Shown here: positions 13,849-20,134 of the stretch, in pieces | How the letters are laid out: every line of letters starts with the position of its first letter | Numbering within the stretch: the stretch's first letter is position 1 | Assembly: GCA_947486575.1 (NCBI GenBank) | Contig: CANKUB010000031.1 | Location: forward strand, 1 to 40,768 | From: Betaproteobacteria bacterium | Lineage (GTDB): Bacteria; Pseudomonadota; Gammaproteobacteria; Burkholderiales; SG8-41 | Direction of reading: 5' to 3' | DNA length: 40,768 nt | Notes under the pieces: model-generated | Told to the model about the DNA's origin: nothing | Databases searched by the model: none | Seen by the model: the letters and a program-made list of their open reading frames with translations, nothing else | Made by a program: the position numbers and the translations under genes

Positions 13849-14088
13849 ATGGATAGACCGCAATCCGCCAAGCTGTTCAAAAATGGCCGCAGTCAGGCCG
13901 TGCGTCTGCCCGCGAAATACCGTTTTCAGGGTGATGAAGTATTCATTACCAAAGAGGCCGACCGGATAATCCTGTCTGCCAAGCCGTTTTCGTGGGACGA
14001 TTTTTTCGCCGCAGAGCATCGAGTGCCCACAAATTTCATGTCGAACAGGAAAGATGCGCTGCCCCAGAAGCGCAAGCTGTTCAAATGA
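13849..14088 (+). CDS. vapB: Antitoxin VapB (MvpA-like, AbrB fold)
   Basis: 79 residues from the ATG at 13849 (AGGAG 9 nt upstream); an in-frame TTG 21 bp earlier overlaps that site and is not used. The N-terminal swapped-hairpin AbrB DNA-binding domain shows AKLFKNGRSQAVRLPAKYRF and DEVFITKEADRIIL. The C-terminal stretch SWDDFFAAEHRVPTNFMSNR matches the VapC-binding tail of enterobacterial MvpA/VapB antitoxins. It neutralises VapC and co-represses the operon. Stop and vapC start overlap (ATGA). Confidence 0.9.
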   Translation: MDRPQSAKLFKNGRSQAVRLPAKYRFQGDEVFITKEADRIILSAKPFSWDDFFAAEHRVPTNFMSNRKDALPQKRKLFK

Positions 14089-14486
14089 AGTGCTACATGC
14101 TGGATACGGATACCAGCAGCTACATCATCCGCAATCGCCCTGAATCCGTTCGCGTTCGTTTCGGCAAGCTGGATAGCAGCCAGTTGTGTATATCCGTCAT
14201 TACGCACGCAGAGCTTTTGTATGGCGTTAAATCGGCGGCTTCAAGCCGCACAATTCGCCCGGCGGTCGAAGATTTTGTACGGCGACTAACCGTGCTCGAT
14301 TGGGATAGTACGGCTGCCGAACACTATGCCGATATACGCACCAAACTGGAAGCAGGCGGAACGCCCATCGGTAATATGGACATGCTGATCGCAGCACACG
14401 CGCGAAGCGTATCCGCCGTGCTGGTCACCAGTAATGAGAAACATTTTCGCCGTGTGAGTGCATTGACTGTGGAAAATTGGGTTTGA
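14085..14486 (+). CDS. vapC: Toxin VapC, PIN-domain ribonuclease
   Basis: 133 residues starting at the ATG that overlaps the vapB stop. PIN active-site acids are visible: YMLDTDTSSYI (Asp about 6 and 8), THAELLYGV (Glu about 43) and IGNMDMLIAAHA (Asp about 99). The final motif is LVTSNEKHFRRV in place of the usual TNN-REF form. Overall it matches the MvpT/VapC group that cleaves initiator tRNA-fMet in enterobacteria (known for the family, not shown for this protein). The pair lies alone between the MFS gene and a convergent DHDPS-family gene, closed by a bidirectional terminator. Confidence 0.92.
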   Translation: MKCYMLDTDTSSYIIRNRPESVRVRFGKLDSSQLCISVITHAELLYGVKSAASSRTIRPAVEDFVRRLTVLDWDSTAAEHYADIRTKLEAGGTPIGNMDMLIAAHARSVSAVLVTSNEKHFRRVSALTVENWV

Positions 14487-14584: not shown

Positions 14585-15526
14585 CTATACCGTAACAGCC
14601 CCCGCCTTCGCCAACCCCGGCATATCAAACCCCAGCTTCAGCAGACTATCAACGGTTGTTTGCGCCTGTGCTGCCGTCAGTGGCATCAGCGGCGGACGCA
14701 CTGTCGCCCATTCCGGGTCGTTAGCATAGTGCGCAATCACTGCTTTCAACGCCGGGATCATCACGTATTGGCCTGTGGTTTTGCGGATGACATCAAGCTG
14801 GGCCTGTTGCGCATCTGCATCGGCGTTTTGCCATTCGCGGTAGAGTTTATCGATGGCCGCCGGATTGACGTTGGCGGTGGCGGAGATGCAGCCTGCACCG
14901 TGGTTGCGCATGTTGGCGAGCAAAAAGGACTCGCTGCCGACGAAGACGTCAAAGCCCTGTTTGGCAAAGGCATCGAGGAACAGTTTGGTGTTGTTCCAGT
15001 CGCCGGAGCTATCTTTCATGCCGGCGATGGCTTTCGGGTAACGCTTCAACAGGCGCTCAACCAGTTTGGTGGTGATGGGCACCACCGCGACCGGCGGAAT
15101 GTGATACAGATAAATTTGTAGCCGTGCATCGCCCACTCTTTCTATCACTTCAGAGAAGTGACGAAACAAACCTTCTTCGGGGACATCCTTGTAATAAAAC
15201 GGCGGCAGCATCAACACACCTGCACAGCCCGCTTTAACCGCGTGCTCGGTCAGACGCACGGTGTCGGTAAACGCGCAGCAGCCGGTGCCGGGCATCATGC
15301 GTGCGGGGTCTACACCGGCTTGCAGCAGCGAATCGAGCAGCGCGATGCGTTCGTTGGTGGAGAGTGAATTCGCTTCGCTGTTGGTACCGAATACCGCGAG
15401 GCCGGAGCCCTGGCCGAGCATCCATTTACATTGCGCGACAAAGCGCTGGTGGTCGGCGCTATAGTCGGCCTTGAACGGGGTGCAAACGGGGGCCAACACG
15501 CCTTTAATACGCTGCGGATCTGTCAT
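14585..15526 (-). CDS. DHDPS/N-acetylneuraminate lyase family class I aldolase
   Basis: 313 residues forming a TIM barrel of the DapA/NanA family. The oxyanion motif is FGTNSEANSLS near 46-56, where lysine-pathway DapA has GTTGE. The catalytic Tyr lies in IYLYHIPP near 138-145 and the Schiff-base Lys in IAGMKDSSGD near 170. Family enzymes condense or cleave pyruvate-containing compounds, and members near Bug genes are usually keto-acid or sugar-acid aldolases or dehydratases rather than true DapA. Length slightly above the 292 of E. coli DapA. A GAGG site precedes the ATG. It is divergent from the Bug5 operon (160 bp between), which may be its functional partner. Confidence 0.9.
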   Translation of the reverse strand: MTDPQRIKGVLAPVCTPFKADYSADHQRFVAQCKWMLGQGSGLAVFGTNSEANSLSTNERIALLDSLLQAGVDPARMMPGTGCCAFTDTVRLTEHAVKAGCAGVLMLPPFYYKDVPEEGLFRHFSEVIERVGDARLQIYLYHIPPVAVVPITTKLVERLLKRYPKAIAGMKDSSGDWNNTKLFLDAFAKQGFDVFVGSESFLLANMRNHGAGCISATANVNPAAIDKLYREWQNADADAQQAQLDVIRKTTGQYVMIPALKAVIAHYANDPEWATVRPPLMPLTAAQAQTTVDSLLKLGFDMPGLAKAGAVTV

Positions 15527-15686: not shown

Positions 15687-16685
15687 TTGTATAAAAACAA
15701 ATGCTTACAGTCGCAGCGCTGTTTGCTGATGGCCGTTGTTACTGCCGCCAGCAGTGCGGGCGTAGCGCATGCTCAGACTGCATCGCCCTACCCCTCCAAG
15801 CCGCTGCGTTTTGTCATCGCGTTTCCGCCCGGTGGCCCTAGCGACATACTCACGCGTTTGCTGGGCAGCAAACTTGCCGAGAGTTTTGGTCAGCCCATTG
15901 TGTTCGACAACCGGCCCGGTGCGGGCGGCAACATCGCCGGTGAGATCACCGCGAAATCGCCGGCTGACGGCTACACTTTGTTGATGGGCAACAACAGTAT
16001 ATTGGCCACCAATGCTGCGCTCTACAAGAACATGGGCTTCGATCCGGTGAAAGAGCTTGCACCGGTGACGCTGGTAGCGTCGCAGCCCAACATATTGGTG
16101 GTAAATCCTGTGGTGACGGCAAAAACCGTGAAAGAATTTATTGCGTACGCTAAAGCGCATTCGGGGAAGTTGAATTACGCCTCATCGGGCAGCGGCGCTG
16201 CGGCACATCTGGCGGGCGAATTGTTCAAAAGCATGACCGGTGTGCGCATGACGCACGTACCGTACAAAGGCGGCGGCCCGGCATTGATCGACGTGCTGGC
16301 GGGGCAATGCCAATTGATGTTTGCCACTGCGCTGGCGGTGCAGCCGTATTTGCAGTCGCAACGTTTACGGCCGCTGGCGGTGACCACTGCCAAGCGCATG
16401 CCTTCACAGCCGGATTTGCCAACAGTCGCCGAAGCAGGTGTGCCGGGTTTTGAAGCGACGACGTGGCACGGTGTGGTTGTGCCCACCGGCACGCCGCCAG
16501 CGGTAATCGCCAAACTGCACGCTGAAATCAGCAAGGTGTTGCAGATGCCGGATGTGAGTTCGCGCCTGGCGGCACAGGGCGCAGAAATTATCGGCGGTGC
16601 GCCGCCAATGTTTGCGACCTATATTCAAAGTGAAATTCCAAAATGGACTAAAGTAATCAAAGACTCAGGGGCAAGGGCAGATTGA
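15687..16685 (+). CDS. Bug/TctC-family periplasmic solute-binding protein (Bug5), TTG start
   Basis: 332 residues from the TTG at 15687, preceded by AAGGAAA; the next ATG (15729) would remove the basic part of the signal peptide. The signal segment is LLMAVVTAASSAGVAHAQ, cleaved near residue 30. Family motifs: YPSKPLRFVIAFPPGGPSD, VFDNRPGAGGNIAGEI, SPADGYTLLMGN, HVPYKGGGPALIDVL and VPGFEATTWHGVVVPTGTP. It heads a four-gene plus-strand operon with two ModA-like proteins and a DenD-like dehydrogenase; only 1 bp separates it from the next gene. The start region is itself a copy of the ACAAATA motif. Confidence 0.9.
   Translation: MYKNKCLQSQRCLLMAVVTAASSAGVAHAQTASPYPSKPLRFVIAFPPGGPSDILTRLLGSKLAESFGQPIVFDNRPGAGGNIAGEITAKSPADGYTLLMGNNSILATNAALYKNMGFDPVKELAPVTLVASQPNILVVNPVVTAKTVKEFIAYAKAHSGKLNYASSGSGAAAHLAGELFKSMTGVRMTHVPYKGGGPALIDVLAGQCQLMFATALAVQPYLQSQRLRPLAVTTAKRMPSQPDLPTVAEAGVPGFEATTWHGVVVPTGTPPAVIAKLHAEISKVLQMPDVSSRLAAQGAEIIGGAPPMFATYIQSEIPKWTKVIKDSGARAD
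15694..15708 (+). repeat. ACAAATA motif copy 7
   Basis: AAAACAAATGCTTAC, one difference from the consensus, forming codons 3 to 7 of Bug5. The TTGT/ACAA dyad seen at Bug4 is kept. Confidence 0.6.
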
Positions 16686-16686
16686 A

Positions 16687-17373
16687 ATGACAACACTGAA
16701 AGTATTGGGTGCAGGGCCGGTTAAACGGGGCGTGACGCTGGTGGCAGCGGAGTTTGAAAAACGCACCGGCCACAAAGTCACAGTTGAGTTCGCCGGTGCG
16801 CCCGGCGTGAAAGACCGCATTCTAGGCGGCGAGGTGGTGGATATCGCGGTAGTGCCGCGCGCCACCATGAACGATTTTGAGAAGGCGGGAAAAACCATCG
16901 CTACTGCAAGCGGCTTGCTGGGCCGTTCGCGCATCGGCATGGTGATCAGGCAGGGTGCGGCGGCACCTGATATGTCCTCGGTCGAGGCATTTAAACAGGC
17001 GATGCTGAATGCCGATGAGATTGTTTGCAACGTCGCCAACAGCGGCAACTATGTGGCGGAATTGGTGGGCAAAATGGGCGTGGGTACCAACAAATTGGTC
17101 AAGCTGGGTGATACCGTGAAGGTGCTGGATCATGTAGCGGCGTCAGCCAGAAATGCATTCGGTGTAGGGCAGCTTGCCGAGATCAGCGAGCTTGCTGATA
17201 AGGGTGTTGCCATTGTGCTGGCCGCGCCATTGCCCGATGCGATACAAAACGAAACCTCCTATGAGGCCGCAGTTGCCACAGCGAGTAATGCTAAGGACGC
17301 AGCGACGGAATTTGTGCGCGCGCTGACGTCCGATGCAGGGCGCAAGTTGCTGGCTACAACCGGCATCGACTGA
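16687..17373 (+). CDS. ModA-like type 2 binding-fold protein without signal peptide (first of pair)
   Basis: 228 residues beginning MTTLKVLGAGPVKRGVTLVA; there is no signal peptide, so it should stay in the cytoplasm. The sequence resembles the molybdate-binding ModA / extracellular solute-binding group: EFEKRTGHKVTVEFAG, DRILGGEVVDIAVVP, LLGRSRIGMVIRQGAAAPD, GVGQLAEISELADKGVAIVLA and a terminal ALTSDAGRKLLATTGID. Real ModA is exported and partnered with ModB/ModC, which are absent here. It lies 1 bp after Bug5 and 14 bp before its own paralogue, so the three are co-translated. Its role is unknown; an intracellular ligand sensor or an enzyme built on a binding fold are options. Confidence 0.82.
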   Translation: MTTLKVLGAGPVKRGVTLVAAEFEKRTGHKVTVEFAGAPGVKDRILGGEVVDIAVVPRATMNDFEKAGKTIATASGLLGRSRIGMVIRQGAAAPDMSSVEAFKQAMLNADEIVCNVANSGNYVAELVGKMGVGTNKLVKLGDTVKVLDHVAASARNAFGVGQLAEISELADKGVAIVLAAPLPDAIQNETSYEAAVATASNAKDAATEFVRALTSDAGRKLLATTGID

Positions 17374-17387
17374 AACAGGAATTTGTG

Positions 17388-18080
17388 ATGTCACTCAAGG
17401 TACTGTCGGCGGGGGCGGTAAAAGGCGGCGTGTCGCAAATTGCCGCAGCGTATGCAGCGGCAGCGGACTGCAAAGTCGATGTTGAATTTACGCAGGTGCC
17501 GAAGATGCGCAAGCGCATCGCCGATGGTGAAATCACGGATGTGCTGGTGGCAACCACGGGGGCCATGGATGAGTTTGCCGCCAGCGGAAAAATTGTTCCC
17601 GCGACCCGTGCGCTGCTCGGCCGCTCGCGCGTAGGCGTGGTGGTGCATAAGGACGCGCCTGCGCCGGATGTATCCGATACCGATGCATTCAAGCACGCGT
17701 TGCTAGCTGCCAGCGCCGTGGTTTACAACGATGCTTCGAGCGGCGTTTATATCGCCGCGCTACTCGAAAAGCTGGGCGTCACGGCGCAACTTGGCGACAG
17801 AATAACGGTGGTCAATAGCGGCTCTGCGATCATGAGCACGGTTGCCGATCGCGGGCTGGGCGCTATGGGCATGGGGCAGATTTCCGAGATCATGGTGATG
17901 ATTAATAAGGGCTGCGCGGTCAAGCTGGTGGCGCCAATGCCGGATGCCATACAGAATGTCACGACGTATTACGCTGCGGTGGCTGTGGCTAGTGCAACAC
18001 AGGATGCGGCGGCAGCGCTGGTGCGTGAGTTAACCTCGGACGCTGCAAAGAAACTTTTCGCGGCGACCGGTATCGATTGA
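17388..18080 (+). CDS. ModA-like type 2 binding-fold protein without signal peptide (second of pair)
   Basis: 230 residues from the ATG at 17388; a GTG one codon earlier is nearer the AGGA site and less likely. It is a diverged tandem copy of the preceding gene: both share the LLGRSR, APD, G-GQ-SE and PDAIQN-T-Y blocks and the C-terminal LTSDA-KL-A-TGID. Identity is roughly 45 percent by eye. Again there is no signal peptide and no ABC transporter partner. Keeping two diverged copies suggests they form a heterodimer or bind different ligands. Third gene of the Bug5 operon, 14 bp ahead of the dehydrogenase gene. Confidence 0.82.
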   Translation: MSLKVLSAGAVKGGVSQIAAAYAAAADCKVDVEFTQVPKMRKRIADGEITDVLVATTGAMDEFAASGKIVPATRALLGRSRVGVVVHKDAPAPDVSDTDAFKHALLAASAVVYNDASSGVYIAALLEKLGVTAQLGDRITVVNSGSAIMSTVADRGLGAMGMGQISEIMVMINKGCAVKLVAPMPDAIQNVTTYYAAVAVASATQDAAAALVRELTSDAAKKLFAATGID

Positions 18081-18094
18081 AGGCGCGCTGATTG

Positions 18095-19060
18095 ATGAAA
18101 ATTCTGATCACAGGCGGCGCTGGGTTTCTCGGTCAGCGTCTCGCGCACGCATTGCTAAAAAATGTACAAAAACAACCACTTACAGAATTAGTGCTGGCAG
18201 ATATTGCGCCCTTGCGCGATGCTGCATTGGTGGCTGACCGGCGCGTACGTAGTGTCACCGGCGATCTTGCACAACAACTCACGGATGGCTTGTTACATGG
18301 CGTCGATGGCGTGTTTCATCTCGCGGCGGCGGTCAGCGGCGAGTGCGAAGCCGATATTGATGTGGGTTTACGCACGAACCTCGATTCCACGCGCGTATTG
18401 CTGGATACGTGCCGCACATTGTCGAAGCCACCACGCCTGGTGTTCTCCAGTTCGCTGGCGGTTTTCGGCGGCACCATGCCGACGGTGATCGCCGACTACA
18501 CCTTGCCGCAGCCGCAAAATTCATACGGCACGCAAAAATTTATCTGCGAACAATTGATCGCTGACTACACGCGCAAAGGTTACATCGACGGACGCAACGT
18601 GCGCCTGCCAACAGTGACAGTGCGCCCCGGTAAACCCAACAAGGCTGCCTCCGGTTTCATGAGCGGCATTATCCGGGAACCGCTGGCGGGCGCGGATGCA
18701 ATTTGCCCGGTGGATCCAGCAACGGGCGTGTGGATTACTTCGCCACGTTTTGCGGTAGCGGGGTTAATCGCGGCTTACCAGACATCGCAGGAGCAATGGG
18801 GCAGCAGAACGGCGATGAATCTGCCGGGGTTGTCGGTGCGCGTGGCTGAAATTATTGAAGCGTTACGTCGCAGCGCCGGTGCAACTGTAGCTGCGCGCGT
18901 GCGGGTGGAAATCGACGAAACTATTTCCAACATCGTCGGCGGCTGGCCGTGGCGTTTTGATACTGCGAGGGCGCGCGCTTTGGGGTTGTCCGGGCCGCTA
19001 ACGATGGATGATCTAGTTGCGGAATATGTGGCCGATTATCCCGCTGCAGTGAGCACGTAA
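18095..19060 (+). CDS. NAD-dependent epimerase/dehydratase family protein, D-erythronate dehydrogenase (DenD)-like
   Basis: 321 residues from the ATG at 18095 (a TTG one codon earlier is possible). The Rossmann dinucleotide motif is ILITGGAGFLGQRLA at the N-terminus. LVFSSSLAVFGG near 116-127 carries the catalytic Ser, and SYGTQKFICEQLI near 147 the YxxxK pair of extended short-chain dehydrogenases. The overall layout (VTVRPGKPNKAASGFMSGII, ending DDLVAEYVADYP) matches DenD, which oxidises D-erythronate at C2 with NAD. The other DenD-pathway genes (OtnK DUF1537 kinase, OtnI) are absent, so substrate remains an inference. Last gene of the Bug5 operon. A motif copy lies within codons 25-30, where it encodes QKQPL. 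Confidence 0.8.
   Translation: MKILITGGAGFLGQRLAHALLKNVQKQPLTELVLADIAPLRDAALVADRRVRSVTGDLAQQLTDGLLHGVDGVFHLAAAVSGECEADIDVGLRTNLDSTRVLLDTCRTLSKPPRLVFSSSLAVFGGTMPTVIADYTLPQPQNSYGTQKFICEQLIADYTRKGYIDGRNVRLPTVTVRPGKPNKAASGFMSGIIREPLAGADAICPVDPATGVWITSPRFAVAGLIAAYQTSQEQWGSRTAMNLPGLSVRVAEIIEALRRSAGATVAARVRVEIDETISNIVGGWPWRFDTARARALGLSGPLTMDDLVAEYVADYPAAVST
18169..18183 (+). repeat. ACAAATA motif copy 8, inside a gene
   Basis: AAAACAACCACTTAC, two differences from the consensus, inside the DenD-like gene and forming part of a variable loop after the Rossmann helix. Confidence 0.4.
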
Positions 19061-19168: not shown

Positions 19169-20134
19169 ATGCACCGCATTTGCAATTTTGCAGCCGTCAG
19201 CCTTCTGGTATTGTCCAGCGCCGCCTGGGAGCAGACTGCGTATCCCACCAAACCCATCCGTCTCGTACTGCCATTCCCGTCGGGCGCACTCAGCGACATC
19301 ATCGGTCGTGCGCTCGGCAACTAAATCTCTGAGCAAATGGGTGTTGCCGTGGTGGCCGATAACCGCGTGGGCGCGGGCGACAACATGGGCTTGTGCATCG
19401 TGGCAAAAGCGTTGCCCGACGGCTACACCATCGCGGTGACCACGCCAGCGATTGCATTGAGTCCGTCGCTTTATGCGAACCTGGGTCACGACGCGCAAAA
19501 GGATTTGACGCCAACAGCGCGGCTCGCCGCGATTGAAAACGTAGTGTTGGTGCATCCGGACGTGCCCGCGAAAAACCTGCGCGATTGTGTCGAACTGGCG
19601 CGTAACCAACCGGGCAAACTCACGTATGTTTCGGGCGGGCCAAGCACCACCAATCATCTGGCGAATGAACTACTCAAGTCGCTGGAAAAAATCGATATGC
19701 TGCATGTGCCTTACAAAGGCGCAACCGTCGCAGCGGTAGCGCTGATGGGCGCTGGAGTCGATGAAGTCATTGTATCGGTGGCCTCATCGCTGCCATACAT
19801 CCGCACAGGCAAAGTGCGTCCGCTTGCGGTGTTATCCCAAAAAAGAGTGGCGGCGTTGCCGGATGTGCCCACCGCGCTGGAATCTGGCGTACCCGGCTTC
19901 ACCATGTCGATCTGGTACGGCATGCTCGCGCCGGGGCGCATGCCAAAAGAGCTTGTTACACGCCTGAATCAAGAGGCAGTGAAGGCATTGGGTGCGGCCG
20001 ATCTGCGCAAGAGCTTTGCCACGCAGGGCGTAGATCCGTGGCCGGGTACACCAGCGGAATTTGATGCTTTGATTAAAAGCGAAACGGCGCGCTATGCAAA
20101 AATTATCGAGCGTGCGGGATTGAAGAAGGAATAG
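19169..20134 (+). pseudogene. Bug/TctC-family binding protein broken by one in-frame stop (Bug6)
   Basis: A full-length Bug gene in one frame from the ATG at 19169 (GGAGAAAG upstream) except for a TAA at 19322-19324, codon 52. Before it: signal peptide, then YPTKPIRLVLPFPSGALSD and IIGRALGN. After it, in the same frame: ISEQMGVAVVADNRVGAGDN, PDGYTIAV, HVPYKGATVAAV, VPGFTMSIWYGMLAPGRMP. The stop sits between ALGN and ISEQ, where relatives have an ordinary residue (for example AAA to TAA in one step). The downstream part reopens at an ATG at 19337 but would lack the signal peptide and the first ligand loop. Readthrough or a sequencing error cannot be excluded. Confidence 0.85.

Follow-up and report, generated by a model that had tools for sequence, protein, structure and literature searches.

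Two leaderless ModA-fold proteins encoded beside a DHDPS-family lyase gene in Burkholderiales are candidate cytoplasmic metabolite-binding proteins

What do two proteins with the fold of a periplasmic receptor do in a bacterium if neither of them appears to leave the cytoplasm? Annotation treats this fold as a transport receptor ("molybdate ABC transporter substrate-binding protein"), in contrast to the situation described here, in which a whole clade lacks both leader and transporter, maintains a diverged pair of copies and is linked to a single lyase. The question arises from a contig of 40,768 nucleotides from a Betaproteobacteria bacterium (the whole stretch that was analyzed, hereafter called the window), for which an earlier, sequence-only reading had described two diverged copies of a binding fold in an operon with an exported Bug protein and a dehydrogenase. 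This description was borne out by the open reading frame calls, family profile matches and gene spacing reported below.

Results

Two ModA-type genes lie in a compact operon

The features of the locus that are needed for the argument are the following.

14585 to 15526, minus strand: divergent gene for a DHDPS-family (class I aldolase-type) lyase, PF00701
15527 to 15686, no strand: divergent intergenic region of 160 bases, which separates the DHDPS gene from the Bug-ORF1-ORF2-dehydrogenase operon
15687 to 16685, plus strand: Bug/TctC-family solute-binding protein, PF03401 (E 7e-73), the first operon gene in this genome
16687 to 17373, plus strand: ORF1 (o1 type), leaderless SBP_bac_11/ModA-fold protein of 228 aa, N-terminus LKVLGAGPVKRG
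17388 to 18080, plus strand: ORF2 (o2 type), second leaderless copy, 230 aa, N-terminus LKVLSAGAVKGG
18092 to 19060, plus strand: D-erythronate dehydrogenase-like protein (DenD) of the NAD epimerase/dehydratase family, starting at TTG 18092 or ATG 18095

Both ORFs match the PF13531 (SBP_bac_11) profile end to end, over positions 1 to 225 of 227 (ORF1, E 4e-24 and 86.1 bits; ORF2, E 2e-29 and 103.5 bits; gathering cut-off 25), and thus belong to this family, with 45 to 46% identity to each other. ORF1 starts at ATG 16687 and ends with a stop at 17371 to 17373, and ORF2 starts at ATG 17388 or, alternatively, GTG 17385 (230 to 231 aa), with its stop at 18078 to 18080. The Bug protein carries a Sec-type signal peptide at its N-terminus, and the DenD-like gene scores 393.7 bits with the NCBIfam model for D-erythronate dehydrogenase (NF043036), above the cut-off of 325. 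A single base separates the Bug stop from ORF1, 11 to 14 bases separate ORF1 from ORF2 depending on the start used (11 to the GTG), and 11 separate ORF2 from the dehydrogenase gene. This spacing is operon-like.

Two other features of the window are recorded here. Downstream of the dehydrogenase, a Bug/TctC gene (19169 to 20134, plus strand) is interrupted about 50 codons in by an in-frame stop, with the remaining frame open, and a short ORF at 13992 to 14486 (plus strand) appears by eye to encode a lone PIN-domain (VapC-type) toxin.

Neither copy has a leader, nor do their nearest homologues

The sequence-only reading held that neither copy has a signal peptide, a claim that a missed upstream start could overturn. 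An in-frame search found no such start for either gene. The frame upstream of ORF1 holds ten codons (SKTQGQGQIE) following a stop and no start codon, and the 30 open codons that precede GTG 17385 upstream of ORF2 are non-hydrophobic and include no start. The N-termini of both proteins align with that of mature ModA, and neither has the signal peptide by which an exported solute-binding protein is recognized.

The homologues could also have turned out to be exported ABC binding proteins. Instead, all 58 complete o1 and o2 members, which are the nearest homologues, are leaderless, and none has an ABC importer directly adjacent. A heuristic leader call on one of them (L062), caused by an upstream start codon, was overruled by eye because its ATG stands at the usual place. 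By these predictions, leader absence characterizes the whole o1/o2 clade, and the proposed cytoplasmic use of the fold gains support from both results.

The fold is that of ModA, but the molybdate site is replaced

Structure prediction, which had been suggested as a check, yielded the full two-lobe ModA-type fold for both copies, with AlphaFold2 pLDDT values of 97.1 (ORF1) and 97.2 (ORF2). The best match of the ORF1 model was 4kd5_A (Z 24.3, 2.1 Å, 216 aligned), followed by ModA of Yersinia and Klebsiella, and that of the ORF2 model was 4kd5_D (Z 23.8, 2.3 Å, 218 aligned), with a match list much like that of ORF1. As modeled, each protein is a complete type II periplasmic-binding fold over its whole chain.

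With the ModA model TIGR01256, ORF1 and ORF2 score only about 29 and 31 bits (29.2 and 31.4, and 28.3 and 31 in a second scan) against a cut-off of 62.5. At the positions of S12, S39, A125, V152 and Y170, which we take to be the molybdate ligands of Escherichia coli ModA, ORF1 has P11, A38, S119, T143 and A164 and ORF2 has A10, V37, S118, G145 and S166, with the proviso that a phmmer alignment instead sets Y170 opposite Q162. Because the contacts of A125 and V152 are presumably made by the main chain, this comparison is informative only for S12, S39 and Y170, all of which are replaced in both proteins. A separate ModA is encoded on another contig of the same genome and scores 197.7 bits. The low scores, the replaced side chains and the separate ModA indicate that ORF1 and ORF2 are not ModA, and a molybdate role was rejected on these grounds.

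The two copies form separate, leaderless branches under purifying selection

Scanning a single genome from each species yielded 80 loci, and rows from an order search were added to give a tree set of 159 proteins plus two ModA outgroups. Leaders are absent from 88 of these rows, present in 70 and unclear in 3, and the three ambiguous rows were excluded from state counts. The o1 type (22 rows, 97% SH-aLRT) and the o2 type (36 rows, 98% SH-aLRT) fall on separate branches, which together with one extra row (L125) make up a 59-row branch (98% SH-aLRT) with zero leaders. The neighboring branch is the exported sister group, with a leader in 51 of 58 rows. Leader state changes at least seven times on the tree, or three times if only starred branches are counted, the deep placement of some rows being unsure because of long branches. 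Since a related exported family exists, leaders were probably lost or gained several times. From the o1/o2/L125 branch and these changes it would follow that the duplication predates the spread of the leaderless clade, and that the wider family has repeatedly gained and lost leaders.

Close relatives within each copy type have dN/dS ratios of 0.07 to 0.12, and the pair is present at 20 loci; the signal of ORF1 and ORF2 is therefore far beyond chance, and the pair appears to be an old duplication under purifying selection. Fixed differences separate o1 from o2 at many positions (e.g. 8, 11, 88 and 168), which suggests that selection maintains each copy separately. The order is o1 then o2 at all 20 pair loci, 11 of which also hold an exported third copy within the cluster, not counting two more, partial copies in L050 and L055. 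The o2 gene occurs without o1 at 16 of 38 loci, although three of these (L066, L067 and L079) begin at a contig edge and L079 holds a partial o1; an obligate ORF1-ORF2 heterodimer is thus unlikely as a rule. The o1 gene stands alone at two loci (L052 and L049), and in L049 the contig ends just beyond it. No o1 was found beside o2 in L061, and in L116 (5105 to 5716) a decayed-looking o1-type N-terminus reads in frame into an o2-type gene, as if o1 had been lost.

Within the window's family, 59 of 74 genomes carry homologues at E 1e-60 or better, some of these being exported third copies; in a class sample, homologues at E 1e-40 or better occur in 2 of 274 genomes, one of which is the window's own. 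Seven of the eight homologues found in that genome (ModA is not among the eight) have no leader. The five leaderless ones other than ORF1 and ORF2 adjoin Bugs or a different set of catabolic genes, namely those for an isocitrate/isopropylmalate-type dehydrogenase with MmgE/PrpD, an acyl-CoA dehydrogenase, a 2-hydroxyacid dehydrogenase and a metallo-beta-lactamase-fold protein.

A further leaderless SBP_bac_11 type, called o4 (TSGAFTAA), comprises 11 proteins with no leader (e.g. L042, 6438 to 7178, minus strand), and its genes lie mostly on the opposite strand of these clusters, adjoining Bug and LVIVD genes. Several environmental MAG records that hold the operon (L045, L050, L052, L062, L065, L068, L072, L073 and others) carry record titles naming Bordetella parapertussis or Chitinophaga pinensis, names that look wrong.

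Residues that distinguish the leaderless group

The cleft motifs are conserved, as read from alignments. In ORF1 numbering, K13 and R82 are present in all 58 o1/o2 proteins, whereas the exported "EPG" proteins (n = 49) have E13 and G82; N115, G120, E165 and Y192 are almost invariant across both groups. K13 alone is no mark of cytosolic life, because it is also carried by 11 of 41 other rows and by the ModA of the same genome. R82 occurs in 5 of the 41, and the diagnostic residues K13, S81 and Q162 recur in other lineages.

Cysteine was considered as a localization marker. Leader-bearing domains have none in 65 of 68 cases, every one of the 36 o2 proteins has at least one, and 17 of 22 o1 proteins have none. 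Despite this large raw difference, the marker was rejected, since the association with leader state was not significant in a tree-aware test (three independent pairs on starred branches, p ≥ 0.25).

The most constant neighbor is a divergent DHDPS-family lyase gene

The sequence-only reading had placed the pair in the company of Bug and DenD-like genes, had asked whether homologues always sit with them, and had missed the DHDPS gene altogether. This company did not prove general. Among 38 o1/o2 loci (window included), the neighbors are DHDPS at 32, Bug at 33, TAXI at 19, LVIVD at 19, BhcC-like at 17, amidohydrolase at 17, HIBADH-like at 15, IlvD at 9 and DenD at only 8, and in a number of close relatives a Bug gene is missing from the intervening stretch; a fixed linkage to DenD was rejected on this count. 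By comparison, the 34 loci with the exported type only have DHDPS at none and Bug at 11. A divergent DHDPS gene lies within 3 kb in 27 of the 29 o1/o2 loci that have at least 2.5 kb upstream, the exceptions being L060 and L052, and at some loci it is only 75 to 180 bases from the first ModA-like gene, the Bug gene being absent from that gap. The most constant neighbor of the leaderless group, as these gene calls indicate, is a divergent DHDPS-family lyase gene, and neither Bug nor DenD.

The DHDPS-family protein of the window scores 121.9 bits with TIGR00674, below the dapA cut-off of 206.15. In 33 copies, K171, which we take to be the Schiff-base position, and Y141 are near-invariant, and V146 stands at what is presumably the place of the DapA substrate arginine. 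Family scans of one representative each identified neighbors resembling 3-hydroxy-D-aspartate aldolase (BhcC-like), 2-hydroxy-3-oxopropionate reductase and HpaI/GarL-type aldolase, and an L-arabinonate dehydratase neighbor scored over its family cut-off (one representative scanned). The predicted theme of the neighborhood is sugar-acid or 2-oxo-acid breakdown. A separate scan for a sensor partner took in 95 of 172 unlabeled neighbor ORFs, the remainder being too short or too far away; among the 25 commonest of the 108 families found, there was no conserved regulator or kinase to which a sensor could signal, LysR, GntR and IclR were absent, and AraC_binding was listed with cupins in 4.

Judged by eye, 15 or more of the 20 copies of the TAXI protein of these clusters are leaderless, and one copy is partial. 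In most relatives (L045, L046, L070 and others), this TAXI-family TRAP receptor begins where the leader would have ended. A twin-arginine-like leader is kept in L039, L061 and L116 and in the window's own genome (G000:C48, L144). Since TAXI and SBP_bac_11 proteins are both leaderless here, two unrelated receptor families would have lost their leaders in the same gene cluster.

No transporter partner was found beside the pair

We used E. coli ModB and ModC, a second ModC, and four TctA and DctM sequences as tblastn probes against the window and the 80 loci. None of the ModB/ModC, TctA or DctM probes matched in the window, so that no modB/modC neighborhood was seen and the absence of an ABC transporter stated earlier was confirmed. 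ABC probes matched in 6 of 81 sources (L060, L080, L086 to L088 and L112, an ABC ATPase), the sole o1/o2 locus among them being L060, where the match is >5 kb away. TctA probes matched in L058, L071, L077 and L113, of which only L058 is an o1/o2 locus (about 6 kb off), and a DctM match lay in L081. An adjoining ABC, TTT or TRAP partner was therefore not found beside o1/o2 by these probes, which could miss a distant permease. Between 5242 and 39987, the window holds twelve TctC/Bug-type genes in one 40.8-kb contig, and no TctA was found there by tblastn.

Discussion

Possible roles of ORF1 and ORF2

Because they have no export tag, form a conserved leaderless group and lie alongside a lyase gene, ORF1 and ORF2 probably bind or convert a small intracellular metabolite. 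That they are cytoplasmic and distinct from ModA is, to judge from the comparisons above, very probable. Our leading but tentative proposal is that they may be metabolite-binding proteins of the cytoplasm, co-opted from an exported family, that serve the lyase pathway by binding rather than by catalysis. They would descend from the same stock as the exported orphan solute-binding proteins and stay in the cytosol, independent of any ABC transporter. The inter-lobe cleft may take a small organic acid that the DHDPS-family enzyme either consumes or releases, and the proteins would hold, hand on or report this acid as a carrier, buffer or sensor partner and not as a transport receptor. The choice of binding over catalysis rests on the predicted fold, and we hold it with somewhat less than even confidence; it is favored by the intact fold, by the cleft motifs that the groups have in common and by the occurrence of relatives in unlike catabolic operons.

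A new cytosolic enzyme is almost as likely. It would have arisen from a solute-binding protein and could catalyze a step on either side of the DHDPS-family lyase (isomerization, dehydration or lactone opening), and the second copy may have acquired a different specificity. This somewhat less probable alternative is favored because the pair has a single constant enzyme partner (DHDPS, at 27 of 29 loci with room), because most members have no transporter whether exported or leaderless, and because the compartment changes often: three to seven or more leader-state changes are more easily tolerated by an enzyme than by a transport receptor. The catabolic surroundings (BhcC-like and HpaI/GarL-like aldolases, 2-hydroxy-3-oxopropionate reductase-like protein, L-arabinonate dehydratase and amidohydrolase) fit as well, as do R82 in 58/58 o1/o2 proteins against G in 49/49 of the exported sister group and the precedent of cyclohexadienyl dehydratase, which stems from an amino-acid-binding protein (PMC7683729). 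However, most of the invariant polar positions (N115, S/T119, E165, Q187 and Y192) are common to the exported sister group, the relatives in the window's own genome lie in unlike catabolic operons that better suit a general binding role, and the alignments identified no catalytic residues in ORF1 or ORF2. In its boldest form, which we regard as possible but less than probable, the pair could represent a novel enzyme family with a ModA-type fold, a duplicated and possibly paired partner of the DHDPS-family lyase in an undescribed sugar-acid/hydroxy-acid pathway that uncultured Burkholderiales would use; the pair would then belong to a broader leaderless habit of SBP_bac_11 and TAXI proteins inside catabolic operons.

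The other readings carry little weight. That the sister group is exported and that the operon also holds an exported Bug would suit orphan periplasmic receptors with a missed leader or non-classical export, but this is improbable given the lack of in-frame upstream starts, the spacing of 1 and 11 nt from the preceding stops, the absence of leaders from all 58 homologues and the cysteines in 36/36 o2 proteins. Functionless relics of an over-expanded binding-protein repertoire might be expected where Bug and SBP families are so hugely expanded (one of the 12 Bug-type genes in the window has an in-frame stop) and where close relatives can be without o1 (L061, and the decayed-looking start in L116); yet the dN/dS of 0.07 to 0.12, the retention across the clade and the E 1e-60 homologues in 59/74 family genomes (which may include exported copies) make decay a quite improbable account. 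Cytosolic ModA-family proteins for molybdate or tungstate storage or homeostasis would explain why the nearest solved fold is ModA, but we give this idea almost no credence in view of the scores of 29.2 and 31.4 bits against 62.5, the replaced ligand positions, the separate ModA at 197.7 bits and neighbors that belong to sugar-acid catabolism and include no molybdenum genes.

If proteins of the ORF1/ORF2 type bind or convert intracellular metabolites, many Burkholderiales annotations would be wrong, and the leader-bearing and leaderless sisters in one gene cluster would be a natural experiment in turning a receptor into a cytosolic binder or enzyme.

Comparison with known systems

In the literature covered, which excluded most subscription journals, no account of leaderless SBP_bac_11 proteins or of the operon was found, and the part of a paper on arylmalonate decarboxylase clusters that was available (PMC4996985) does not mention "molybd". 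Annotated relatives are named "substrate-binding domain-containing protein" or "modA", and the three that were inspected bear a leader and are more distant.

ORF1 and ORF2 share with ModA (TIGR01256) the whole type II fold, with Z of about 19 to 24 for several ModA structures, but they differ in having no leader, no modBC, other side chains at the molybdate site and scores far under the family cut-off. The exported orphan SBP_bac_11 proteins of Burkholderiales form the sister group and have N115, E165, Q187, Y192 and the SG.Y and PLP..Q..T.Y motifs in common with the pair. Unlike o1/o2, they have a leader, EPG in place of KRG/KGG, V-G in place of S-R at 81 to 82, almost no cysteine and no DHDPS neighbor.

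Two precedents are already known. The Bug/TctC orphan binding proteins of betaproteobacteria resemble ORF1 and ORF2 in being multiplied, mostly without a membrane partner and near catabolic genes (PMC5812351), although they are exported, belong to another family (PF03401) and are about 300 aa long. Cyclohexadienyl dehydratase is a solute-binding fold that turned into an enzyme, with an arginine-binding ancestor (PMC7683729), and thus likewise reuses the type II fold outside transport; it derives from the amino-acid-binding branch, whereas ORF1 and ORF2 are leaderless and come from the ModA-like branch.
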